35,355 bases of DNA from an uncultured Verrucomicrobiota bacterium (lineage in GTDB: Bacteria; Verrucomicrobiota; Verrucomicrobiia; Opitutales; Intestinicryptomonadaceae). The stretch lies in assembly GCA_949298545.1 (NCBI GenBank), contig CASFWX010000072.1, positions 1 to 35,355 on the forward strand. Reading direction: 5' to 3'. Positions 66 through 27,655 of this stretch are shown piece after piece. The notes below the pieces were generated by a model. It saw nothing but the letters and a program-made list of their open reading frames with translations, did not search any database and was not told the origin of the DNA. Each line of letters starts with the position of its first letter. Positions within the stretch are counted from its first letter, which is position 1. Both the position numbers and the translations under genes were made by a program.

Positions 66-2303
66 TTGAAAAGGCCGCGCAAATGGGCAAGCATTTTCGC
101 AATGAACGAGACAGGTTCCATATGCGGACTCTGGATAGATCCCGAAGGCAACGCCCGCATTTGCCTGGCGGACTCCGCCGGAGAGCGGACTTCGACATCG
201 GCTGTCTTTCAGCCTTTCCTGTGGACTAATTCCGAAGCAGACTTTTTTAACTACAAATGCCTGGCGGAAAGCCTGAAAAGTCCGGGCGTTCCACCCACCC
301 CGTTAAACCGCCTACTCAGCTTTCCGACAATATCGGACATGGAGGACTATTTTAAAAAGCGCGACAAGCGCCTGCCTGTCGAGCGCCTGTCCGTTCCGGA
401 AAACCAGTTTCTTCTCTCCCGCGGGCTGAGAATGTTTTCAGGCATGTCATTCGGGCAAATCCGGAGAATGCAGCTCGACATAGAGACGCTTTCAAGCGGA
501 AGCTTTCCCATGGCAAAACGGCGGGAGGACAGAATAATAGCAGTTGGAATATCTGGGACGGATGGGAAAAAGATAATAGAGATAGGGGACTTTAGCGACG
601 ATGCCGAACGCGCGCTGCTCGAAGAAACCTCCCGTGAAATTCTAAAGCGCGATCCCGATACTATTGAAGGGCACAACATATTCAATTTCGACCTTCCCTA
701 TATAGCCGAGCGCTGCAAACTGGTAGGAGCGAAAATGAATTGGGGGCGTTTCGGGGCGTCGGCAAAATTCCGCAAGAGCAGGCTTTCAATAGCCGAAAGG
801 ACTTTCGCCTACACGCGCTGCGACATTCCCGGACGCTCGATAATCGACACCCTCATACTCGTCCAGCTGCACGACCTCAGCGTTCGCGAAATGCCGTCTT
901 ACGGTCTGAAGGCCGCCGCAATTTACTTCGGGATAAGCGACGGAAAAAAGCGCACCTATCTTCCCGGATCCGAAATCGGAAACGCATTTCAGTCCGACAG
1001 AAAAAAATTCCGGGATTACCTCTCCGACGATCTCCGCGAAACCGAAGCGCTCGCAACAATGCTGCTGCCGTCCTTCGTCGCTCAGGTGAGAAATTTTCCG
1101 CTGACACTTCAGGAGTGCGTGCTTCGGGGAACGGGAATGAAAGTGGAAACGCTCTTTCTCGAAAAGTATTACGCCTCAAAAGCCGCCCTTCCGCTCCCCG
1201 AAAACGGAGAGTTTTTCGAGGGCGCGCTATCAGAAAGCTTTGAAACGGGCGTATTCAAAAATATCCTGCATTACGACGTCGCCTCACTCTATCCGAGCCT
1301 CATGCTCCTCATAGGTAAATGCCCGCGCAACGACTACCTGAAAGTCTTTCTCGAAGAACTCAAGCGCCTTCGCGAGTACAGGCTTAAGTATAAAACCCTC
1401 GCCCGACAGACCTCGGACCCATCGCTCGCCGCCGAATACGACGCAAGGCAAAAGAGCTTCAAAATCCTTATAAACTCGTTTTACGGCTATCTCGGCCTCT
1501 CCACCGCAAGCTTCGGCGACAGCCAGCTCGCAGCAGAAATTACAAAAAAAGGGCGCCTCCTCCTCTCCGAACTCATAGACAAATTCAGGTCTCTCGGCTG
1601 CAAAGTCCTCGAAGCGGACACCGACGGAATATACATATCCTCAGAGGAATGGTTCTCAAATAGTTCTCTCCTCTTGGAAAAAGTTTCCGAAATGCTTCCC
1701 GCCGGAGTGGATCTCGAATGCGACGGGCTGTATCCGGCAATGCTGTGCTATAAGGCGAAAAATTACGCCCTGCTCGAAAGCGAAGGCAAAATAATAATGC
1801 GCGGCTCGGCGCTGAGGAACCGCTCCACAGAACCGTTCCTAAGAACCCTAACAGAAACTCTCGTGCGCGACAGGCTGCTCGACCGCGACGCTGAAATTCC
1901 AAAGGAAATCGCCTCCTTGAAAGAAAAAATATCGCGCGGAACCGCCGACATACTCGATCTGGCAAAGAGCGAATTTATAAGCCGCTCTCCTGAACAGTAC
2001 GAGGAAGAGGTCGAGAAGACAGGCAAAGGAAGGCGCGCGGCAATGGAAGCTGCTCTGAAAATGTCTCCGCCGCCGCGCGCGGGCGACAAAGTCTCATACT
2101 ATATCGCGCGCGCGGACGGGAAAAAAACTGCCGATTGGAAACGCGCATTGCCCGTCGAGATGTACGACGCCTCCTCCGCCCCGTACGACGCCGCCTACTA
2201 TCTGAAAAAGATCGACGATTGGCTCGAGCGCTTCTCCGAATTATCCGGAAAGTCCTATATAAAAAATCCTGAGAGCGCCGTGCAGGGAGAATTGTTTTCT
2301 TGA
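66..2303 (+). CDS. polB: Family-B DNA polymerase with 3'-5' exonuclease (Pol II-like)
   Basis: Template-directed DNA synthesis with proofreading; bacterial family-B enzymes usually act in repair or replication restart rather than bulk replication. All family motifs are visible. Exo I is D138-I-E140, Exo II is around N204-D209 (FNFDLPY) and Exo III is Y318/D322. Polymerase motif A is D404-VASLYPS, motif B is K466..N470-SFYG, and motif C is D518-T519-D520. The catalytic residues are intact, and 745 aa is close to E. coli Pol II (783 aa). The protein ends in Q740-G-E-L-F-S, which resembles the beta-clamp-binding peptide at the C-terminus of E. coli Pol II. The frame opens with TTG at 66; an in-frame ATG at 102 (residue 13) is the alternative. 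Neither has a clear Shine-Dalgarno sequence, so the start is uncertain. The stop overlaps the longest possible hisD frame. Confidence 0.93.
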   Translation: MKRPRKWASIFAMNETGSICGLWIDPEGNARICLADSAGERTSTSAVFQPFLWTNSEADFFNYKCLAESLKSPGVPPTPLNRLLSFPTISDMEDYFKKRDKRLPVERLSVPENQFLLSRGLRMFSGMSFGQIRRMQLDIETLSSGSFPMAKRREDRIIAVGISGTDGKKIIEIGDFSDDAERALLEETSREILKRDPDTIEGHNIFNFDLPYIAERCKLVGAKMNWGRFGASAKFRKSRLSIAERTFAYTRCDIPGRSIIDTLILVQLHDLSVREMPSYGLKAAAIYFGISDGKKRTYLPGSEIGNAFQSDRKKFRDYLSDDLRETEALATMLLPSFVAQVRNFPLTLQECVLRGTGMKVETLFLEKYYASKAALPLPENGEFFEGALSESFETGVFKNILHYDVASLYPSLMLLIGKCPRNDYLKVFLEELKRLREYRLKYKTLARQTSDPSLAAEYDARQKSFKILINSFYGYLGLSTASFGDSQLAAEITKKGRLLLSELIDKFRSLGCKVLEADTDGIYISSEEWFSNSSLLLEKVSEMLPAGVDLECDGLYPAMLCYKAKNYALLESEGKIIMRGSALRNRSTEPFLRTLTETLVRDRLLDRDAEIPKEIASLKEKISRGTADILDLAKSEFISRSPEQYEEEVEKTGKGRRAAMEAALKMSPPPRAGDKVSYYIARADGKKTADWKRALPVEMYDASSAPYDAAYYLKKIDDWLERFSELSGKSYIKNPESAVQGELFS

Positions 2304-2335
2304 TTTCCTCCGATTTTTGGGCGAACTTTCCGAAG

Positions 2336-3628
2336 ATGAAAACATTGAATTTTAAAGCGCCGGGATTTTGGAAAAAACTTTCCTCACTGTGCTCGGCCGA
2401 AACCCGTTCGCCTGAAATATCGCAAACTGTGTCGCGCGTCATAGCCGACGTAAGAGCGCGCGGAGACTCCGCATTATTTGAATTGACAAAGAAATTCGAC
2501 GGCGCCGACATAGACAAAAAGAACATACGGGTCTCGCGCGTCGAAATTTCCCAAGCGCTGAAAAAAGTATCGCCGGCCGACAAAAAAATGATGCGTTCGG
2601 CAATAAGGTGCGTGAAAGAATACAACGCGCGCTCGAAGCCGAAAAATTGGAAATCGACAAATCCCCACGGGGCAATAGTCGGGGAAATTTTCTATCCCAT
2701 CAGGAGAGTCGGTCTTTACATTCCCGGTGGGAACGCCCCGCTAGTATCGACTGTCGCAATGACGGCAACGCTCGCAAAGATCGCCGGCTGCCCTGAAATT
2801 TGCGTGTGCACGCCTCCCTCAAAAGACGGAAGCGTAAATCCCTTCATTCTTTCAGCCCTCTCGATTCTCGGAATAGACGAGATTTATAAAGCGGGCGGCG
2901 CGCAGGCCATAGCCGCCATGGGCATAGGAACGCAAAGCATTCCCGCCGTCGACAAGCTGTTCGGCCCCGGAAACGCATTTGTGATAGAGGCTAAGAGACA
3001 GCTGTTCGGGGAAGTCGGCTGCGACCTCCTCCCGGGCCCGAGCGAAATAATGATAATAGCCGATTCAACAGCCCCGTCCGGATATGCCGCCGCCGATTTG
3101 CTCTCGCAAGCCGAACACGGAAGCGGCAGGGAGAGAATATTTATCGCCAGCACCTCCGGAAAGCTACTCTCGGAGCTTGAAAGCGAACTCAAAAAACAAG
3201 CCGAAAAACTTTCCAGACGGGAAAAGCTCCTGAAAATAATCGCCGACAGATGCGTGGCAGTATCCGTCCCGGACCTCGACTCCGCAGCGGAAATAGCCAA
3301 CTACATAGCGCCCGAACATATCGAACTGATGGTCGCAAATCCCGACTCTCTCGCCCCGAAGATCTCAACGTCGGGCGCCATACTGCTCGGCGCGAATAGC
3401 CCGACAGTACTCGGAGATTTTACCGCGGGTCCGAGCCATACCCTGCCCACTGGACGAACTGGCAGATTCTCTGGCGGGCTGCAAGTCGTCGATTTTATGC
3501 GCCGCAGCTCATATGTAAAATATTCTAAAAAATCAATAGTTGCCGCCAAACCCGCTGTAGAGGCGTTCTCGGCAATGGAAATGCTCGACGCCCACGCAAA
3601 CAGCCTTCTCCAAAGGCTACAAAAATAG
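2336..3628 (+). CDS. hisD: Histidinol dehydrogenase
   Basis: Catalyses the last two steps of histidine synthesis, the NAD-dependent four-electron oxidation of L-histidinol to L-histidine, in the cytoplasm. Family hallmarks are all present: the PGGNAPL segment, the GGAQAIAAMGIGT and DKLFGPGN segments, LLPGPSEI, the zinc-ligand stretch QAEHGSG, the catalytic pair in APEHIEL, LGDFTAGPSHTLPTG, and a late histidine in DAHANSL. I chose ATG 2336, which gives 430 aa (E. coli 434). The open frame extends back to a TTG at 2300 that overlaps the polB stop, but the extra 12 residues have no counterpart in the family. No other his genes are in the window, so hisD stands apart from a his operon. It lies between polB and a histidine kinase, 2 bp from the latter, suggesting one transcript. 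Confidence 0.96.
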   Translation: MKTLNFKAPGFWKKLSSLCSAETRSPEISQTVSRVIADVRARGDSALFELTKKFDGADIDKKNIRVSRVEISQALKKVSPADKKMMRSAIRCVKEYNARSKPKNWKSTNPHGAIVGEIFYPIRRVGLYIPGGNAPLVSTVAMTATLAKIAGCPEICVCTPPSKDGSVNPFILSALSILGIDEIYKAGGAQAIAAMGIGTQSIPAVDKLFGPGNAFVIEAKRQLFGEVGCDLLPGPSEIMIIADSTAPSGYAAADLLSQAEHGSGRERIFIASTSGKLLSELESELKKQAEKLSRREKLLKIIADRCVAVSVPDLDSAAEIANYIAPEHIELMVANPDSLAPKISTSGAILLGANSPTVLGDFTAGPSHTLPTGRTGRFSGGLQVVDFMRRSSYVKYSKKSIVAAKPAVEAFSAMEMLDAHANSLLQRLQK

Positions 3629-3630
3629 GC

Positions 3631-4761
3631 ATGTCGGACAGCATAAGAGACAGTTTCGCACGGCTTTTGCGAAAAAACAAGCGCCTCAAACGAGAATTGT
3701 CGCGCATAGAAACGCTGTTTAACGCAATGAAATCCGCCGTGTTAGTGGCGGACAGGGCCGGGCAAATCCAGTTCGCCAACAACTACGCATGCGAAATTTT
3801 CGGGATAGAGAATCCTCTGCCAAACATCAGGAAAATCCTTCCCGGAGTAGACAAGACGCTTGAAGAGCTCGACAGCGAAGACGACTTCTTCTCGCGCAGG
3901 GAATTTAAAATAGACTATCCCCAAGAGCGAATTCTCGGAGCGCAAATAGTTCCTTTCAACTTCAACGAGGAGGGCGGGGCCACTTACGCATTCATTATAA
4001 ACGACCTCACCGAAGACAAGCATATGGCGGAGGAGCGTATCGAGAACGAAAAGATGGATTCGCTCCTCGCGCTTGCCTCTGGAGTCGCGCACGAAATAGG
4101 GAACCCATTAAACTCAATAAATATACATCTCCAGCTCGCACGCAGAAGGCTCGCTAAGGTTTCCGAAAGCCTGTCAGAATCCTCCAGCGAAATTGCCGAA
4201 ATAGGAGATTCCATAAACGTATGTTCCGAGGAGGTCATGCGCCTAAACTCGATTGTCGAAAACTTTTTAAAAGCCTTGAGGCCGATGCGCCCAGACATCA
4301 AAGAGTGCGACCCAATGAAGCCGCTTGCCGAGACATTAAAGATTCTAAATGGCGAATTGGAGAATTTAAAAATCAGCGTAGTCGTGGACGTAGAAACTCT
4401 TCTTCCAAACGTCCTGGCGGACGCGAATATGCTAAAGCAGCTGTATTTTAATCTGATTAGGAATTCCATGGAGGCGATGTCGGTCGGCGGGCTAATAAAA
4501 ATCTCCGCCAAAGCGACCGATACAGACGTCAGGATATCATTTGCCGACAACGGCTGCGGGATAGACGAAGACGGCATGGCAAAGCTGTTTAAGCCCTACC
4601 ACACGACAAAGCCCAACGGGCACGGGCTCGGCATGACAATTATGCGCGGCATCGTGAGGGCGCACCACGGAACAATCGACGTGAGAAGCAAGCCCGGCAG
4701 GGGAACGACAATATCCATAAGCATTCCACGAAGCAACCCGCAGTTGAAACGCCTCTCTTAG
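3631..4761 (+). CDS. Soluble PAS-domain sensor histidine kinase (NtrB/AtoS-like), orphan
   Basis: A cytoplasmic two-component sensor kinase of 376 aa with no membrane segment. A short basic coiled-coil start (about 1-30) leads into a PAS domain (about 28-125; AVLVADRAGQIQFAN). The HisKA H-box is AHEIGNPLN, with the likely phosphorylated histidine at H154. The HATPase domain has N-box residues N274 and N278, a G1 box DNGCG at 306-310, HTTKPNGHGLG at 324-334 and a final GRGT. The single-helix H-box followed by 'HTTK..G.GLG' resembles NtrB-type kinases. ATG 3631 follows the hisD stop by 2 bp, so expression is probably coupled to hisD. No response regulator is encoded next to it, so the partner is elsewhere and the signal is unknown. 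The kinase assignment is firm; the pathway is not. Confidence 0.92.
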   Translation: MSDSIRDSFARLLRKNKRLKRELSRIETLFNAMKSAVLVADRAGQIQFANNYACEIFGIENPLPNIRKILPGVDKTLEELDSEDDFFSRREFKIDYPQERILGAQIVPFNFNEEGGATYAFIINDLTEDKHMAEERIENEKMDSLLALASGVAHEIGNPLNSINIHLQLARRRLAKVSESLSESSSEIAEIGDSINVCSEEVMRLNSIVENFLKALRPMRPDIKECDPMKPLAETLKILNGELENLKISVVVDVETLLPNVLADANMLKQLYFNLIRNSMEAMSVGGLIKISAKATDTDVRISFADNGCGIDEDGMAKLFKPYHTTKPNGHGLGMTIMRGIVRAHHGTIDVRSKPGRGTTISISIPRSNPQLKRLS

Positions 4762-4919: not shown

Positions 4920-7100
<2,181 letters not shown>

Positions 7101-7120
7101 CTTAAAAGTTTCCTTTCCCT

Positions 7121-9199
7121 TTATTTGATTACGCCGAGATCGGCCAACATCGATTTCAGGGTTTCGTAATTGTTGCTCTTTATGCTTATCGAGCCGTCCA
7201 TGCCGGCGGCCTTAAAGCCCTCCTCAAGCTCGGCGGCGGGAATGCCCGCCATATAAACCACCGATTCGGGAGCGATCTCCTTTATCGCTTTGGACACCGA
7301 CGGGACAAGCTCCGGATAGGTGTCGTCTGTCGAGCAAATCACGGCGTATTTCGCGCCGCTCTCCTTAAAGGCTTTTGCCGCGTCTTCGGCTGTCGCAAAC
7401 CCGTTGGGATAAACTACCTCGAATCCGCCCACTTCAAAGAATCCGCGAATAAAGTCCGCCCTTATCTTGTGCTGCACCAACGGACCCATTGTCGCGAGGA
7501 AGACCTTCGGGCCGTGCCCGTTTTTCTCCTTAAACTCGGCGCTCGCCTTGCGCAGCGCCTCGAAGTGCTCAACTGCCCTGCGGATCTCGAGAGGCTTGAC
7601 GCTCAAGCCGTCGGCACACTTGCAAACCGCCGACTGAAGCTCGGAAATTCCCGCTCCCTTCTCCGCCGCACTTACAAGCTCGGCTATTGCTTCGGCTCCG
7701 GCAGCGCCCTTCAAATCCACTCCGACGTCCGCGCGCTCGGAAGATACCACTTTCGAGCGCTCCTCGAACAATTCCGCGCACTTGCATTCGCCCTTGTCGA
7801 GAAGTTTTTCGGACATATTCGCGTAGTTGTTGGTGCCGACGACCGAACTTCTGCGGGTGTCGTAAAGCTTCTTCTTTGCCGCCGCCGTCTTGGCGATGGC
7901 GTCCTGCACAAATCCGCTTTCGAGAGCTTTCAGCATTCCGCCCTCGCTTTCGATTTTCACGAAGAACTCCCACGCCTTCGCCGCGAGCTCGCGGGTCAGG
8001 TTTTCAACGTAGTAAGAACCACCTGCCGGATCTATGACATCGGTAAGAGCGCATTCCTCCTGGAGGATAATCTGCTGGTTCCGGGCTATCCTCGACGAGA
8101 ACTCGTCAGGCTTGCGAATAATCTCGTCGAAAGCCCCGACCGTCATGGAATCGACGCCGCCTATGGCGCCTTCAAATGCCTCGGTGGCGGCGCGGAGAAT
8201 GTTGACGTAAGGATCGTAGACTGTCTTGTTGTAAATGGAGGTCCGCGCGCCGAGGCGAATCTTTTTCGATTCCTCGCTGCCGCCGAATTCCCCGATTATT
8301 TTTGCAAAGAGCATCTTTGCCGCGCGCAGCTTGGCGATTTCCATAAAGAAATTCGAGCCGAGCGAAACGCGGAAGCGGATCATCGACGCCGCTGCGTCTA
8401 TATCGAGCCCGCGCTCCATCATCGCCCTTATATAGGCAACCGCAGTGGCAAAAGCCGCCCCGAGCTCCTCCACAGCGCTCGCCCCGGCGGACGAGTACGC
8501 CATCGTATCAACGCCTATCGCCCCGAAATCGGGCATATTTTTTATGTTGTAAGAGCACAGGGCAAACATCTCGTTATAGGCGCAATCCAGAGAGCGCGAA
8601 AGCTTGCCGGTTTTTGCAAGAGTTCCCAGCGGATCGAAAAATATGCCGCCCTTGAGCTTCTTGCCCCTCTCAGCGGCGAATAAAATCGCCTCAATGCCGG
8701 CAGCCGCGCTTTCGACATACACATTTACAGGAACTGCCGACGTGTCGACGCCGGCAAGAGCCCTTTCAAAATCTTTCGCTGTAGATGCGGAAAGCCCGCC
8801 CGAAGCTACCTTTCCCTTCTCCGACTTGTCGGCATCAACCGCGTTCGCCGATGCGCAATCGAGAACTATTTCTACGGAATTTTGCCCCTTCGAGAGCGCG
8901 TCGATAAGGGACGCGTTGAATTTCTCCGGAAGGCCTTCGGCTATCTCCTGCGAGACTTTCCACGGAGAACCCTTGGCGCCCTCAGGCTTGGTTCCGCGAA
9001 CATAGTCGTCAAAACCGGGAAGGGACACGTCAAAATTCATGTCCGCCTGGCAATATATGGGCTTGAGAGTTATTCCCTCAGGCGTGTTCGTATACATCTT
9101 CTTTTCGAAGGGGGCGCCTTTCAGCAGTTTTACTGCTTCGGCCTTCCACTCTTCGTAAGTAGGCACTTTGAATTCGGTGAACAATTTTTCGTTTTTCAT
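7121..9199 (-). CDS. mutA: Methylmalonyl-CoA mutase small (non-catalytic) subunit
   Basis: Partner of MutB in the heterodimeric mutase. The protein (692 aa from ATG 9199) shares the barrel fold: ITLKPIY near the N-terminus, [19 protein letters not shown] and [12 protein letters not shown] later. It also has a B12-like C-terminal domain. In that domain the cobalt-ligand motif DxHxxG is absent; the matching segment reads [17 protein letters not shown]. This is expected for the non-catalytic subunit and separates it from MutB. The frame opens six codons earlier at TTG 9217, but ATG 9199 (MKNEKLF) matches the usual start better; neither has a good Shine-Dalgarno sequence. It is the first gene of the mutA-mutB operon. 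A possible promoter lies near 9329-9358. The lengthened, Ala/Lys-rich middle and linker make it somewhat longer than the classical subunit of about 640 aa. Confidence 0.95.
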
Positions 9200-9328
9200 C
9201 AGCTTATAAAAATGCAAATTTCAATTCCACCACGAACGCAAACTTAGTCAAGGCAATATCTTTCGCAAATCCAAGAATATCCCCGATTTTCCCAACTAAA
9301 AAATTAAGATTTTATATATGCCGACGAT

Positions 9329-11769: not shown

Positions 11770-13995
11770 TCATAGTTTGAACAGGGAAACTTTTCTGCCG
11801 AGCATACTCGAGCTCTTTTTAAGTTCCGCGGCGAGAAATTTGACTCTGCCCAATTCCGAAAGATTGTTTTTCAACCCACCCTCCAGCTTTAAGACCGACT
11901 CCGAAATTTCCCTCATGTCACGGACGCCCGCGTCTATGGCTCCGGACAGGGCGAGCATTGCCGGGGCAAAACGCCCCGCGCGAAGCTCGACGGATTTTGC
12001 AATATCCGAAAGCTCCTCCATAGAGAGATACCCGTCTCTGGCGGCGGAATTGTATGCCGCCATTTCTGAGACTCCGTCGGAAGCGGCATTGCAAACGGCG
12101 GATATTCTATCCGCCGCCTCCATGGCCGCGTCGGCTGAACTTTTCGACAAAGCCGCTATTTCCGATGCATCTCCGCCGAAAGCTTCCGGATCTCCCCCGG
12201 GCACAACTTCGCCTTCGCCCCCCGCATCGGAAAGCGCGTTTAGCGACAAAATACCCGTGCGGGAACTCAAAGCGGCAAGTTCTTTCAATGAAGACGACAT
12301 TCTCTCTGCCCCTTCTGATATTATTGCCAATGCGCCTGCGGCGGAATCGGTGTCGGCAACTATGGATTTTGCGATTTTGTCGAGTGAAGCCAAGCGCCTC
12401 CGAGTTTCCGAAGCGGCTATCCCGACAGTACCGCTTTCGGCGCCTATTTCGCGAGCCGAAGCGGAAAGAAAATCGAGCCCTTTTTGCATGTCCGACGCGG
12501 CAGAAGATATTTCGGACAATGTTCGAATTCTATATTCCGCACCTCCCTCAAGCTCGGCGGCCGCGGAACTTATCTTCTCGGCGCGTTCCGCCAATTCCCT
12601 CGCCCCCCGGCCGACATGCCCGACAAAGGACGATACTTCCGCGGACATTTTCTTCATCGAAACCCCCAATTCGTAAATTTCGAGATTTACGACTCCCCCT
12701 GCCAGCACTCCCCTGTCGAGCTCGCAAAGCGACGCGGACAAGTTGAATTCCGCCGCGCAGTCGGCTGCTGAAGCGAGCTTTAGAATCATGTTTGCCCCTT
12801 TTCTCCCCGCCAAGACGGCGGCAAAACATGCGAATGCAAACATTGCCGCTCCGAGGGGGAGGAGCGTCATGGCAAACTTTTTAGTCTGTTTTTTTATATC
12901 ACCGTAAAAATTAGAGAAATCTTCCGGGCGCGCCACGCTTCCCACAACCACGCCCAACTCCGGCAAATATGCCGAGCTGACGACAAGCTTCTCCCCGTTT
13001 ATATCCGCCGAAAAAGTCCTCGCTCCGGACTCTCCCAAAGAGAAAGCTCTCAGCGAGACTTTAAGCAAAAGCTCCCTTTCTCCAGATTTTGCAACCGCGC
13101 CAGTTGAAGTCAAGATGTCCGATGCGCTACCGCCTCCGCCCATACCGGCCGCCCAAACGTAGCCCGTCTTTCCCGCCGCAAGTCCCGAAAAGTATTCGGA
13201 GATATCTGCAACAGACAAGTTTCTCCCATAACATGAAAGCGCTCCCACAACTTCTCCGGAAGCGTCAAATAGCGGTTCGAAGCACTCCGTGTACGGCTTC
13301 CCGGCGATTGATATGCCGCCGCTGTATGGCCTGCCGCCCAAAAGTGACTTTGAAATAGCTGCGTCTGTGTCTGAACCGTCGGAATCGATATATGAACCGG
13401 GCTCGCATCCGTTCCCCGCCCCGCGCAGGGTATCGAATATTTTTAGAAAGTCCCCCTCGGCTGAAGCGCGGATAAACACGGCAAATTCCAATCCGTATTC
13501 CGCCCGAATGCGCGCGACTGCAGGACCTATGCCGGTGTCCCCGAAAGTCTCGTCGCCCAAAGCCTCCCCGCCACTCCTATTGCCGGAAGCCGCCGCGGCG
13601 GAATTAAAAACGGGCGCTTGAAATTCGGCGCTTCCGAGTTTTAAAACCCCGACTTCGAACACTTTTTTTTCCATGCCGTCCACGCGCCTGACAGCCTCGA
13701 GCTTGCGGCGCTCGGGGGAAACGGAAACCGTTTTGAAAGCCGCCGCGGCGGAAAGCTCCTCGCGCCCCCCGCGAAACGCGTTTGCGCGCGCATTGACAGC
13801 CATTTCGCACGACTTTAAGGCGTTCTCGCATACCCCGCGCGATATTTTGGCGGCGAGAAAATCGAACTGCCCCTCCGAAACGCTTGATATCTCGCGGTTG
13901 GTTTTCCAGACGAGCAAAGCCATGACGGCTATGGGAAGCGCCGACACAACGACGGCAAAAAGCGCGAGCAGCCCGGTCAAAGAGAACTTCTTCAT
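11770..13995 (-). CDS. Cache-type chemoreceptor-like protein with strongly degenerate signalling domain
   Basis: Predicted inner-membrane receptor of 741 aa. TM1 is about residues 7-29, then a large periplasmic region (about 32-370) resembling a Cache sensor (FEPLFDASGEVVGALSCYGRNL at 239-260; LVVSSAYLPELGVVVGSV at 337-354), then TM2 at about 374-397. A long Ala/Ser/Glu helical region (about 440-735) has the heptad look of a chemoreceptor rod. At the expected hairpin tip only fragments of the consensus remain (RTGILSLNALSDAGGEG, about 579-595), followed by a Gly/Pro-rich break, so CheA/CheW contact is doubtful. There is no CheW-binding glycine hinge I can recognise. ATG 13995 overlaps the upstream receptor's stop by 4 bp (ATGA), so the two are translationally coupled and may form a pair. 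Ligand and output are unknown. Confidence 0.7.
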   Translation of the reverse strand: MKKFSLTGLLALFAVVVSALPIAVMALLVWKTNREISSVSEGQFDFLAAKISRGVCENALKSCEMAVNARANAFRGGREELSAAAAFKTVSVSPERRKLEAVRRVDGMEKKVFEVGVLKLGSAEFQAPVFNSAAAASGNRSGGEALGDETFGDTGIGPAVARIRAEYGLEFAVFIRASAEGDFLKIFDTLRGAGNGCEPGSYIDSDGSDTDAAISKSLLGGRPYSGGISIAGKPYTECFEPLFDASGEVVGALSCYGRNLSVADISEYFSGLAAGKTGYVWAAGMGGGGSASDILTSTGAVAKSGERELLLKVSLRAFSLGESGARTFSADINGEKLVVSSAYLPELGVVVGSVARPEDFSNFYGDIKKQTKKFAMTLLPLGAAMFAFACFAAVLAGRKGANMILKLASAADCAAEFNLSASLCELDRGVLAGGVVNLEIYELGVSMKKMSAEVSSFVGHVGRGARELAERAEKISSAAAELEGGAEYRIRTLSEISSAASDMQKGLDFLSASAREIGAESGTVGIAASETRRRLASLDKIAKSIVADTDSAAGALAIISEGAERMSSSLKELAALSSRTGILSLNALSDAGGEGEVVPGGDPEAFGGDASEIAALSKSSADAAMEAADRISAVCNAASDGVSEMAAYNSAARDGYLSMEELSDIAKSVELRAGRFAPAMLALSGAIDAGVRDMREISESVLKLEGGLKNNLSELGRVKFLAAELKKSSSMLGRKVSLFKL

Positions 13996-16190
13996 CCCGC
14001 CCCTCCCTTCGCCCGAAGCCCGGACACGTCAAAATGCGACGCTTCGGAAAGCAGCATTTCACCGGTTGAAACCAGATATTGCGTCTGCTCGGAAAAGAGC
14101 GATATTCCCCTGCGCGAGCGCGACGATTCGGCGGACATCTCGTCGAGCTTGCGCCCTACGAGTTTTGCCGAATCGGAAAGCTCCTCCACCGCCGAAGAAA
14201 TTCCCTTAAACCCGACAGCCATTTTTTCTGCCAAGCCCATTGCGTCTGAAAGAACCGGAGCGGCGCCCACAATCGCATTCGACCCGCCCCTCATGCGAAC
14301 CGCAATTTCGTCGACGCGCGCCAATCCGTCCTCCGCGGACTTTCTGAGGCGCCGCGCTACGCCCTCCGTCTCACGCGCAAGTTCGGTCGCCTCCGAAGCC
14401 AAATTCCTGACATGCTTCGACGTCACCGCAAAAGCTGCCCCGATATCCCCTGATTTCTCGGCTTCCAGCGAGGCGTTCATAGACAGGAGGTTCATTTTTA
14501 CTCCCGTTTCGTTTATGCGCGCGACTATGCCAGATATATCGTCCACGCTCGCGCTTATCTTCTCGAGGCGCTCGCCGAAATTTTCAGACGCCGAAAATAC
14601 GGCGTCGTAATTTTTCATAAGGCTTGAGAGTTTTTCCCCTCCGCCGGAACATAGGGAAACTATGGAATCGGCATTTTCGCCGGCTTCTGCGGCAGCTCTT
14701 GCGACAGCCTCCCCCGATGCGGAAACGAGGCGCCCGGCTCCCGACGCCCTCTCTATTGCCATCTCCTCTGAAGACGCCGCGGCGCCCATCTCAATGGCGG
14801 CATTTGAAAGCTTGGAAGCCCGGCGGGAAAGCCCGAGAGCCGTCCCCACCACCTCGCCAACCACATCGGAAAGCGCCAAAACCATTCTGCGCATGGATTC
14901 AGACAAAATCGCGAACTCAGCTATCGGAACTGCCGTCTCCAGCTTTTTAGACAGTTCCCCCGCCTCTCCCAGCCTTCCGGCAGCCTGCGCGATAGAAATG
15001 CGGGTGAGAAGTTTCAATGGGCGCGTCATCGCCGCCGACAGCACATACGCAAGCGAGAGACCGACTGCCGACGACAGCAACCCTATTAAAATTATCCGCA
15101 GCAAGAATGAGTTTGCGGATTCCTCCAAGAACGCCCCAGCTTCCGCAAATTCTGCTGGGTTGCAAACCGTTCCGATTATCCAGCCCCACGGCTCATAACG
15201 CGAGTAGCAAACTATTCTGTCTCCCCCGCCGAACGGAGCGGAAAATTTTTCAGATCGAATAGCGCCCGATTTCATTTCAGCATACGATGAAAGAGCCGAC
15301 ACCAAAAAGTTTCGGCGCGCCCCGACAGTGTCGTTGCTGACGACCATTCCGACAAGCGAGTCGTCCCTGGCAATTCTGATGCGCGGGATTGCCGGACAGG
15401 AATTGTCTATAACCCATGCGCTTCCGCTGCCGCCGACTTTCAATGTCTTGAGCCAGGATTCAAGGCGCCTGACTGTATCGCTTTTCTTTCCGAAGAACAG
15501 AGCCCCGACGAGCTCGCCCGCGCCGTTTTCAAGAGGGATATATGTTGCGGCCAACGAGTTGTCGCCGACATCGACTATCCCGGAAAAGTCCATTCCCCGC
15601 TCGAGATTTGATATTATTGAAGCTGCCCCGCGGGAGCGCCCCGCGCTCATCATCGTGCCGCACATTATTCCGACTTCGGGATTTTTTATCGTCGTTGCCA
15701 CGCGCAAAAGGGCCCGCTCGGCGGGCAAAAAAGCGAGTATTCCGAACTCGCATGCAAACTCGCTTTTCAAGGACTCGAGCATGCGTTCAATCCGTTCGTT
15801 TTCGGGCTTTCCGAATCTGAAATCCGCCGTTTCCCCCCCAAATGACAGGAGCCTGACTCCCACTTTCTTCATTTCCGAATCCGGAGCGCCCTGCTCCCTG
15901 ACGAGCCTGTCGGAAACGGCATTGGAGACGGTGACTTTCCCGAGCTTTCCAAGCCTATCGATAAAAGCCTTCTTCGCCTCCGCGCCGAAGAGGCCGTCGG
16001 TTTTTCTCACAACCTCGCAGGCGCGGACGATATCAGCCGTCGCCTGTTCCGCCACAATTCCCGCCGCAGAGGCAAAGCTGCCGGCGGCAGCCTTTTCGGC
16101 GTCTTCGCCGCCGATTGCTATAAAAAGCGACATTACCGCCACGGGTATTACCGTGACGACAGCAGCAAGCCCCAAGAGGCTTATTTTCAT
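13992..16190 (-). CDS. Cache-type methyl-accepting chemotaxis-like receptor
   Basis: Inner-membrane receptor of 732 aa from ATG 16190; TTG 16202 would add four residues. Numbering below uses the longer form. TM1 is about 6-29. The periplasmic region (about 35-360) has Cache features (SLAATYIPLENGAGELVGALF at 216-236; RYEPWGWIIGTV at 335-346). TM2 is about 366-391, followed by a HAMP-like linker that begins MTRPLKLLTRIS. The signalling rod holds a recognisable but altered hairpin tip: MNLLSMNASLEAEKSGD then AAFAVTSKHVRNLASEATE (about 570-607). The invariant EAARAGE..GRGFAVVA core is changed to EAEKSGD..GAAFAVT. The C-terminus has no NWETF-type tether. It is the first of two ATGA-overlapping genes encoding similar proteins. 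No che genes lie in the window. Confidence 0.78.
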   Translation of the reverse strand: MKISLLGLAAVVTVIPVAVMSLFIAIGGEDAEKAAAGSFASAAGIVAEQATADIVRACEVVRKTDGLFGAEAKKAFIDRLGKLGKVTVSNAVSDRLVREQGAPDSEMKKVGVRLLSFGGETADFRFGKPENERIERMLESLKSEFACEFGILAFLPAERALLRVATTIKNPEVGIMCGTMMSAGRSRGAASIISNLERGMDFSGIVDVGDNSLAATYIPLENGAGELVGALFFGKKSDTVRRLESWLKTLKVGGSGSAWVIDNSCPAIPRIRIARDDSLVGMVVSNDTVGARRNFLVSALSSYAEMKSGAIRSEKFSAPFGGGDRIVCYSRYEPWGWIIGTVCNPAEFAEAGAFLEESANSFLLRIILIGLLSSAVGLSLAYVLSAAMTRPLKLLTRISIAQAAGRLGEAGELSKKLETAVPIAEFAILSESMRRMVLALSDVVGEVVGTALGLSRRASKLSNAAIEMGAAASSEEMAIERASGAGRLVSASGEAVARAAAEAGENADSIVSLCSGGGEKLSSLMKNYDAVFSASENFGERLEKISASVDDISGIVARINETGVKMNLLSMNASLEAEKSGDIGAAFAVTSKHVRNLASEATELARETEGVARRLRKSAEDGLARVDEIAVRMRGGSNAIVGAAPVLSDAMGLAEKMAVGFKGISSAVEELSDSAKLVGRKLDEMSAESSRSRRGISLFSEQTQYLVSTGEMLLSEASHFDVSGLRAKGGAG

Positions 16191-16202
16191 TGACGCTTTC
16201 AA

Positions 16203-25734: not shown

Positions 25735-26703
25735 ATGTTTATAGCGCTTTTGTTTGCTTCCATCGGGCTGGCCTACTTGATTCCGTGGGTCGGAGCCGAC
25801 TATGAGCCATTCGGACTCGGGGACGTCGCCGCCTGGGGAGTAATGTTCATTTTCTTTTTTTACGGGCTCCGCCTGAGCCGCGAGAAGTTGAAAGCAGGTC
25901 TTGTCAATACGCGCCTGCATATGCTCGTGCACATTTCCACTTTCCTCCTTTTCCCCGTTTTACTGCTTGCCGTGATGAAGCTCTGCGGGGCGATGGACGG
26001 AGAGGGCGACGTGCACTATCTATGGATAGGGTCGTTTTTTCTGGCTACCCTGCCTTCGACTGTTTCAAGCTCAGTCGTAATGGTGTCTTTGGCCGGAGGG
26101 AACCTGCCGGCAGCCATATTTAACGCGAGCGTGTCGAGCCTGCTTGGAATATTTATAACGCCGCTGTGGATGAGCATATTTCTCGACAATATAGACGGCG
26201 CCCATGGGCTTGGAGATGTCGTGTTCAAACTGATTGTGCAGGTTTTAATTCCCGTATGCGCCGGCGCGGCATTGAATCCTAAGTACGGGGCTTTTGCCGA
26301 AAGGCATAAAAAGGCGCTGCGCAATTTTGACCAGACGATAATATTGCTTATAGTTTTCACTTCGTTTTGCGATTCTTTCGAAAAAAAGATGTTCTCTGGC
26401 TTCCCTCTGGTTGACATAGCAATTCTGTCGGCAAGCATGATAACTCTTTTCTTTGCAGTATATTTCATAATATACGCGCTTTGCCATCTGATGAAATTCA
26501 ACCGCGAGGATACAATAACGGCGCTTTTTTGCGGTTCAAAAAAGTCCCTTGTCCACGGAACCGTGATGAGCAACGTTCTCTTCAATAATCCCGCCGTAAT
26601 AGGCGTAATACTTTTGCCCACAATGCTTTATCACGCCTTTCAACTGCTTATAGTGTCCGTAATCGCAAAGGAGATGGGAAAGAACACAAAAAAACAAACT
26701 TAA
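25735..26703 (+). CDS. Bile acid:sodium symporter (BASS/SLC10A7-like) family transporter
   Basis: Membrane transporter of 322 aa with about nine to ten hydrophobic segments. Family features are FIFFFYGLRLSREKLK (TM2 end), the crossover-type segment FLATLPSTVSSSVVMVSLAGGN and AAIFNASVSSLLGIFITPLW, plus FCGSKKSLVHGT in the second half. The Ser/Thr-rich 'LPSTVSSS' and 'GSKKS' stretches are typical of the YfeH/SLC10A7 branch, whose substrates are poorly known and need not be bile acids. It has its own small upstream spacer and stands alone between the RlhA-like gene and rplM. Confidence 0.9.
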   Translation: MFIALLFASIGLAYLIPWVGADYEPFGLGDVAAWGVMFIFFFYGLRLSREKLKAGLVNTRLHMLVHISTFLLFPVLLLAVMKLCGAMDGEGDVHYLWIGSFFLATLPSTVSSSVVMVSLAGGNLPAAIFNASVSSLLGIFITPLWMSIFLDNIDGAHGLGDVVFKLIVQVLIPVCAGAALNPKYGAFAERHKKALRNFDQTIILLIVFTSFCDSFEKKMFSGFPLVDIAILSASMITLFFAVYFIIYALCHLMKFNREDTITALFCGSKKSLVHGTVMSNVLFNNPAVIGVILLPTMLYHAFQLLIVSVIAKEMGKNTKKQT

Positions 26704-26776
26704 ATTATTTTGCTTGCGGAAAAATAAAAGAGTCTCAATATCGACCCTTTAAATATAAAAAAACAGAAAAAAATTA

Positions 26777-26804
26777 TTGACGCCGAATGGACAAACCATA
26801 AGGT
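26777..26804 (+). promoter_or_regulatory. Possible promoter of rplM-rpsI
   Basis: TTGACG at 26777-26782 and TAAGGT at 26799-26804 with a 16-bp spacer, 21 bp upstream of the rplM ATG. The -35 box is good and the -10 box is weak. A transcript from here would have a leader of only about 10-15 nt with no Shine-Dalgarno sequence. Confidence 0.4.
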
Positions 26805-26825
26805 GTCGTGCTTTTCTTTAATTAG

Positions 26826-27254
26826 ATGAATACGACAATAGCCAAGAAAGAGGAAAAGGCTCAGTGGCATGTGGTTGACGCAGCCGACCAAGTGCTGGGA
26901 CGCCTCGCCGTGCAAATAGCCAACGTGCTCCGCGGCCGCAACAAGCCAATTTATACGCCCAACGTCGATTGCGGCGACCATGTAATCGTCGTCAACGCGG
27001 AAAAAGTGCGCGTGACGGGCAAAAAGGAAAACGAAAAGGAATATATGTTCTACTCCGGATTTGTCGGGGGCGAAAAATATGTGAAGCTTTCCGAATTTCG
27101 CGCGCGCAAGCCGGAGTATCTCATCGAGGCTGCAGTTCGCGGAATGTTGCCCAAGAACAAGCTCGCCAACGATATTTTCCGTAAACTTCACGTCTATGCG
27201 GGACCGGAACATCCCCATTCCGCGCAGCAACCCAAACCCCTTAAATTTCAATAG
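26826..27254 (+). CDS. rplM: 50S ribosomal protein L13
   Basis: Large-subunit protein L13, 142 aa, the normal size. Recognisable segments are WHVVDAADQVLGRLAVQIANVLRG, DCGDHVIVVNAEKVRVTGKK, FRARKPEYLIEAAVRGMLPKN and KLHVYAGPEHPHSAQQP. It is followed at 5 bp by rpsI, the classical L13-S9 pair. The upstream region TTCTTTAATTAG has no Shine-Dalgarno sequence. Confidence 0.98.
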   Translation: MNTTIAKKEEKAQWHVVDAADQVLGRLAVQIANVLRGRNKPIYTPNVDCGDHVIVVNAEKVRVTGKKENEKEYMFYSGFVGGEKYVKLSEFRARKPEYLIEAAVRGMLPKNKLANDIFRKLHVYAGPEHPHSAQQPKPLKFQ

Positions 27255-27259
27255 CCACC

Positions 27260-27655
27260 ATGAGCGATAAGGAAATTTTCGTATCCGTCGGACGCCGTAA
27301 AACCTCCGTTGCGCGCGCGCGCGTTGCAAAGGGAAGCGGCAAAATCATCGTCAACGACAAGCCCATCGCCGAATATTGCTGCACGGACCAGCTCGTTTCC
27401 ACAGCGCAACTGCCCTTGAGCATCACGGGCATGACAGGTTCCGTGGACGCCGACATCAAAGTTAGCGGAGGCGGCCAAGTCGGCCAGGCAGGCGCAATCA
27501 GCCACGCCCTTGCGCGCGCCCTCCAGAAAATGGACGAAAGCCTTAGAGCTCCCCTGAAAAAAGCCGGCCTCATTACGAGAGACCCGAGAGCCAAGGAGCG
27601 CAAAAAGTCCGGACAGCCCGGAGCTCGCAAGCGTTTCCAATTCTCGAAGCGTTAA
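27260..27655 (+). CDS. rpsI: 30S ribosomal protein S9
   Basis: Small-subunit protein S9, 131 aa. The family start VSVGRRKTSVARARV, the middle GGGQVGQAGAISHALARAL, and the basic C-terminus ending KKSGQPGARKRFQFSKR, which reaches the P-site tRNA, are all present. The 5-bp gap after rplM (CCACC) carries no Shine-Dalgarno sequence, so it probably relies on translational coupling. A strong terminator follows. Confidence 0.98.
   Translation: MSDKEIFVSVGRRKTSVARARVAKGSGKIIVNDKPIAEYCCTDQLVSTAQLPLSITGMTGSVDADIKVSGGGQVGQAGAISHALARALQKMDESLRAPLKKAGLITRDPRAKERKKSGQPGARKRFQFSKR

Follow-up and report, generated by a model that had tools for sequence, protein, structure and literature searches.

Bacterial chemoreceptors are normally regarded as homodimers. 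Few stretches of bacterial signalling proteins are better conserved than the tip of these receptors. One study is reportedly titled after dimer signalling with a single cytoplasmic domain. Engineered dimers of Tsr tolerate a ligand-site lesion in one subunit and can still signal, whereas a one-sided tip lesion, I377P, blocks function (PMC4692393). A different fate of a chemoreceptor is represented by Tls, which occurs in E. coli B2 strains; it is a shortened part of Trg and sequesters FlhDC (PMC12623472). For the chemosensory pathways of alternative function, CheR-TPR proteins are given as typical in PMC3447774, and FrzE is tabulated with Hpt, ATPase, CheW, and receiver domains, the homodimeric domain being unmatched in that table (PMC3945109). 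Among the matches listed from the open-licence literature, we found no natural chemoreceptor heterodimer with one degenerate tip.

The DNA analysed here (the window) is a stretch of 35,355 nucleotides from an uncultured bacterium of the phylum Verrucomicrobiota, family Intestinicryptomonadaceae (GCA_949298545.1, contig CASFWX010000072.1). The genome that carries the window, G000, is a 112-contig assembly of 92% completeness, so the absence of a single gene from it is not proof. The family comprised 19 genomes (G000 to G018).

The overlapping receptor genes and their tips

Two paralogous Cache chemoreceptors, A and B, are encoded by adjacent genes of the window. Their features are the following, with M denoting a third receptor of the same genome.

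13992 to 16190, minus strand: gene A, a Cache_3-Cache_2 chemoreceptor with an MCPsignal domain (732 aa from the ATG at 16190; orthologues in 10 relatives)
11770 to 13995, minus strand: gene B, a paralogous Cache chemoreceptor with a degenerate signalling tip (741 aa from its ATG; orthologues in 10 relatives)
13992 to 13995, minus strand: ATGA overlap of the stop of A and the start of B, 4 nt (a 4-nt overlap in nine of 10 relatives, a 1-nt gap in G010)
14133 to 14573, minus strand: MCPsignal domain of A (above the cut-off, with 72.7 bits when the protein was scanned and 77.7 bits when the genome was searched)
11887 to 12342, minus strand: sub-threshold MCPsignal match of B (Pfam, 19.6 bits)
15138 to 15713, minus strand: Cache_3-Cache_2 match of A (Pfam)
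13120 to 13530, minus strand: Cache_3-Cache_2 match of B (Pfam)
14415 to 14477, minus strand: hairpin tip of A, NASLEAEKSGDIGAAFAVTSK (of 20 tip-core columns without variation among 10 relatives, seven differ in this sequence)
12172 to 12240, minus strand: degenerate tip of B, NALSDAGGEGEVVPGGDPEAFGG (Gly/Pro-rich, five residues longer than the tips of A and M)

An earlier note on this DNA had described two similar receptor genes that overlap by ATGA, the first with an altered but recognisable tip and the second with nearly all of its tip lost and a Gly/Pro-rich break in its place. The coordinates and the 4-nt overlap were verified, and the profile search with Cache and MCPsignal models that the note had advised bore out the rest: A reaches 72.7 bits against the curated Pfam cut-off for MCPsignal (PF00015) of 34.6 bits, B stays at 19.6 bits, and both have a Cache_3-Cache_2 domain (PF17201; 69.4 bits for A and 42.7 bits for B, both above the cut-off). 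An alternative start of A, the TTG at 16202, is possible. We infer that A and B are translationally coupled via the ATGA overlap. For HAMP, Pfam listed no match in A or B at E values up to 10, a range in which the filters drop weak matches, and one B orthologue gave 14.6 bits, below the cut-off. In a comparison with solved structures, the signalling domain of A matched chemoreceptors (best E value 4.2e-13), among them 2ch7, a T. maritima-type MCP. The signalling domain of B matched no chemoreceptor up to an E value of 1, and only the sensor of B found matches, which were weak. A scan of named genomes returned distant receptors only, the best row being a Riflebacteria MAG with 22% identity.

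In this species, the tip of A reads NASLEAEKSGDIGAAFAVT, altered and still recognisable. A compensating (double) frameshift was rejected as the cause of the B tip, because the other two forward frames, read over 195 bases, contain no chemoreceptor motif and both contain stops. The codon signal of B is 0.27 bits per codon in frame, compared to -0.545 and -0.385 in the two alternative forward frames and -0.161, 0.110, and -0.625 in the reverse frames, and is similar to that of HisS (0.317) and peptidase U32 (0.229). Along the gene it amounts to 0.25-0.26 at the tip and is lowest, at 0.04-0.13, in the sensor. AlphaFold models of low confidence, built from two-row alignments (mean pLDDT 58.6 and 59.9), have an 11-residue helix break with pLDDT under 50 at the tip of B; in A, the hairpin is interrupted over five residues, and pLDDT at its turn is likewise below 50. 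The Gly/Pro loop at the tip of B is probably flexible.

Elsewhere in the window, genes for a family B DNA polymerase, a histidinol dehydrogenase, and a PAS histidine kinase are closely packed in one run (66-4761). Tandem methylmalonyl-CoA mutase genes occupy 4920-9217, the second of which (7121-9217) has a sub-threshold B12-binding match and perhaps encodes a small subunit, and a 209-aa ORF at 26700-27329 has no Pfam match and may be no gene.

Chemosensory genes of this genome and its relatives

That no che genes lie nearby, as the earlier note had stated, holds for the window but not for the genome. Whole-genome searches of G000 identified two MCPsignal matches, gene A and receptor M on contig C41, which with B makes three receptor genes found, and two CheW-domain matches, both on C41. 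On this contig, M, CheW, and CheA-REC form a cluster in which every gene overlaps the next (L003:2459-7841). The CheA-REC has Pfam matches to Hpt, HATPase_c, CheW, and Response_reg, and PF02895 is not matched. Its His, N, G1, and G2 motifs and the receiver Asp are kept in 11 of 11 aligned genomes (G000 and 10 relatives), and the frames of M, CheA, A, and B are full length in G000. A first Hpt-like stretch of CheA is without its His in all 11 aligned genomes, and the second keeps it.

The genome check for cheA, cheW, and flagella recommended in the earlier note was thus positive for CheW and CheA-REC and negative for FliG_C, which was found in none of the 13 genus genomes searched (G011 among them is unsearchable, and G013 was left out). 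Neither CheR (PF01739) nor CheB (PF01339) had a match in the genome search of G000, so adaptation by receptor methylation would hardly be possible there. A PilT-family ATPase is present in G000 and also in G002, G008, and G012, all three of which are without a CheW match; in G009, a PilT-family match (C17:9675-10676) contains an internal TAG. The searches for CheR, CheB, FliG, and PilT left out G013 to G018. We propose that the chemosensory system of G000 is a reduced relative of the Wsp/Frz-type 'alternative function' pathways.

Matches to B were obtained in 28 of the 88 genomes searched, G000 included. Within the family, a B-type match, MCPsignal, and CheW co-occur in the same 11 of 19 genomes and the other eight are without all three (G011 being unsearchable), where the occurrence of MCPsignal rests on per-genome tallies and the co-occurrence with CheW on few independent losses. 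G011 is a one-contig record that yielded no candidates in nine of nine relatives searches, including that for rpoA, and is seemingly unsearchable or misplaced. Two different rpoA copies are found in G012 (L071 and L078), one of them outside the rest of the genus, and this is possibly a mixed assembly. When the pair was looked for in related genomes, as had also been suggested, A and B proved to be adjacent and on the same strand in all 10 relatives examined. A ComM gene is near the pair in G003, G007, G010, and G013, and in this window.

The che clusters differ in their gene content. That of G014 has the order M, CheW, CheR, CheW, CheA-REC, CheB (the first CheW, CheR, and CheB were Pfam-checked, the second CheW and CheA come from the relatives searches), the cluster of G016 resembles it by position and length only, and G001 keeps CheR and CheB. 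Two CheW-like genes and no CheR in the cluster are found in G004 (a CheW-like gene below the cut-off), G009, and G013, and the two CheW-domain matches of G000, G003, G005, G007, and G010 correspond to one CheW gene besides CheA. The che gene set may have been lost in an order across the family. For CheR, the TPR match exceeded the cut-off in G083 alone; those of G014 and G001 fell short of it. In G027 and in four genomes that belong to a different family of the order (G037, G055, G069, and G083), overlapping X- and M-type receptors are located in the CheA run, and both of their tips are ordinary in five of five checked.

The earlier note had also considered an output other than CheA, which the results do not support. 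Although the A-B pair is located away from the che cluster in the family genomes examined, the tip of B in this species is like no known partner site, and Tls provides an example of a chemoreceptor fragment whose output is a different one (PMC12623472), G000 has its own CheW and CheA-REC with intact motifs, and each of the 11 family genomes with CheW has a match to B, as opposed to none of the eight without. The tip of A is moreover as conserved as that of M in the relatives, and receptors sit in the CheA run in related families. In our estimation, signalling of the pair to a target other than CheA is very improbable.

Constraint on the tips and drift of the receptors

Identity and parsimony steps were determined for those relatives that have the pair, eight of the genus or 10 of the family, with G000 excluded unless stated, over the columns present in A of G000, so that the 5-residue insert of B is uncounted. 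Across the 30 tip-core columns, identity in the 28 genus pairs is 85.6% for A, 84.9% for M, and 57.3% for B. A exceeds B in every one of these pairs, and in 44 of 45 once the sister genus is added. The corresponding sensor identities are 33.7% (A), 51.7% (M), and 36.9% (B), with A above B in 11 of 28 pairs. Counted on one fixed topology for the 10 relatives, the tip core required 22 parsimony steps in A, 21 in M, and 65 in B, and the sensor 1360, 845, and 1275, respectively. Chi-square comparison of the tip with the rest gave p = 1.3e-5 for B versus A and p = 4.8e-4 for B versus M, with columns taken as independent. In the 10 relatives, 12 of the 30 tip-core columns are invariant in A and not in B, and the opposite case does not occur (0/30). 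The helix after the tip has a mean entropy of 1.49 in B, 1.07 in A, and 1.52 in M (eight genus relatives). Mere fast evolution of B was rejected as an explanation for the divergence of its tip, as the whole signalling domain of M is equally diverged (41.6% identity vs. 42.9% for B, eight genus relatives) with a conserved tip, and the sensor of B does not evolve faster than that of A.

Individual residues are given here at positions 390, 391, 393, 398, 402, and 404 in Tsr numbering. Position 398 is Val in A of all 11 genomes, in M of 10, and in B of one, and both turn glycines, 390 and 393, are present in 11/11 A and 4/11 B sequences (G001, G007, G014, and G016). Arg404 is absent in 8/11 B and 11/11 M sequences, and Glu391 in 10/11 M sequences. 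As M, a member of the CheA cluster, departs at 391 and 404, departures in the tip are not peculiar to B. At position 402, exactly one of A and B has Glu in 11 of 11 genomes; it is B that has it within the genus and A within the sister genus, and as few as one or two switches in evolution may account for this pattern. The coiled-coil arms of A, B, and M have no indels in the scored stretches of all 11 genomes, and arms matched in this way would permit an A:B dimer and do no more than that.

A and B may instead form independent homodimers, with B having another coupling partner or binding CheW weakly and the operon only setting the amounts. With 47.8 to 93.8 bits, each of the 10 B orthologues lies above the MCPsignal cut-off; the B tip in the relatives is therefore relaxed and not gone, and its complete loss is a property of this species. 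This observation, the two ordinary tips in the X/M pairs of related families (five of five), and the position of M in the CheA cluster despite its departures at 391 and 404 all agree with separate homodimers. However, Val398 and mostly the turn glycines are lost in B and kept in A, and in the five of 11 family genomes that have one CheW gene besides CheA (listed above), no spare coupling protein is seen. We thus regard this arrangement as unlikely.

Tree support is 100/100 for A and B together, 92/90 for B, and 80/48 for A, whose clade is weak, and the G000 rows are flagged in the tree as long or of unusual composition. In the simplest scenario, A and B would have arisen by a single duplication that preceded the split of the two genera. 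Judging from these alignments, the asymmetry between the two tips is older than this species.

In G000, the receptor branches are 1.5 (A), 2.09 (B), and 1.22 (M) long, and the housekeeping branch of four proteins is 0.13, with values of mostly 0.02-0.12 in the genus relatives, 0.15 in G002, and 0.16 for the second G012 copy. Species-wide fast evolution accounts only partly for the length of the receptor branches. Of the columns that are otherwise invariant, G000 has changed seven of 20 in the tip core of A, three of 17 in the sensor of A, and three of 17 in the tip core of M. Because A and M drift as well, the entire chemosensory system is undergoing either remodelling or decay. Decay is the strongest competing explanation, given that all three receptors evolve fast in this species: the whole system would be in the course of being lost, with B nearly dead, A and M drifting, and the tip functionless. 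Such late decay would be in line with receptor branches of this length next to the housekeeping value, with the changes at invariant columns of A in the tip as compared to the sensor, with the missing CheR and CheB matches in G000, with the thinner clusters in several relatives, and with the eight of 19 family genomes in which CheW and MCPsignal were not found (one of them, G011, unsearchable). Yet none of the three receptor frames is truncated, nor is CheA, the catalytic motifs of CheA are intact, the overall coding signal of A and B is normal, and the difference between their tips predates this species. We consider late decay a possible, if rather doubtful, explanation.

A proposed role for B and comparison with known systems

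To our mind there is an even chance that B, with its relaxed tip, partners A in heterodimers or mixed trimers, and that A couples to CheW/CheA. A heterodimer or mixed trimer with A as the contact fits because the arms are equal, the genes overlap, and the relaxation of the tip is one-sided; the paralogy of A and B, their co-occurrence with CheW, and a B sensor as conserved as that of A are further observations on which this proposal builds. The asymmetric receptor complex suggested in the earlier note is thereby upheld as an asymmetric pair in evolutionary terms (B tip relaxed, A tip conserved, genes adjacent in 10 of 10 relatives), whereas the physical pairing of A and B is what we infer.

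In the proposed mechanism, A and B, stemming from an old duplication, would serve the single CheW/CheA-REC system on C41. B would be inserted beside A, either within A:B heterodimers or in mixed trimers that contain B dimers, and ligand binding at either Cache sensor would move the coiled coil. Docking of CheW/CheA would be left to the tips of A and M only, the contact through B having presumably been lost, and the B tip, furthest gone in this species, would probably have turned into a flexible Gly/Pro loop. A stronger and distinctly tentative version would regard the pair as a natural obligate heterodimer, in which A takes the outer, CheA/CheW-binding place and B an inner or idle one with its tip free to decay. 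The pattern of one Glu at position 402 is a hint toward a heterodimer with such split work. A conserved pair with one drifting tip would offer a natural test of the number of working tips that a dimer or trimer requires, a question so far studied with engineered receptors, and the range within the family, from a cluster with CheR and CheB to no CheW found, is useful for studying the order in which signalling arrays are disassembled.

With the membrane-bound methyl-accepting chemotaxis proteins, the receptors described here share the Cache sensor, the helical hairpin, and, in A, the MCPsignal domain; they differ in the lost tip of B, the conserved tandem pair in which one tip is relaxed, and the lack of CheR and CheB matches in G000. 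The cluster of G014 has the gene order of the Wsp system of Pseudomonas (wspA-F), whereas G000 keeps only MCP, CheW, and CheA-REC. Membership in Wsp was rejected, as GGDEF (PF00990) had no match in 15 of 15 family genomes searched (G000 and 14 relatives, the unsearchable G011 among them), and therefore no WspR-like output is seen. The C41 CheA has the same domain make-up as FrzE of the Frz system of Myxococcus and likewise no PF02895 match (PMC3945109). As in the engineered Tsr dimers (PMC4692393), the subunits of one dimer would hold different places, but those dimers were engineered, and the lesions tolerated were at the ligand site and not at the tip. Tls (PMC12623472) is likewise derived from a chemoreceptor and has left standard signalling, while here full-length Cache receptors are encoded together with a CheA in the same genome.
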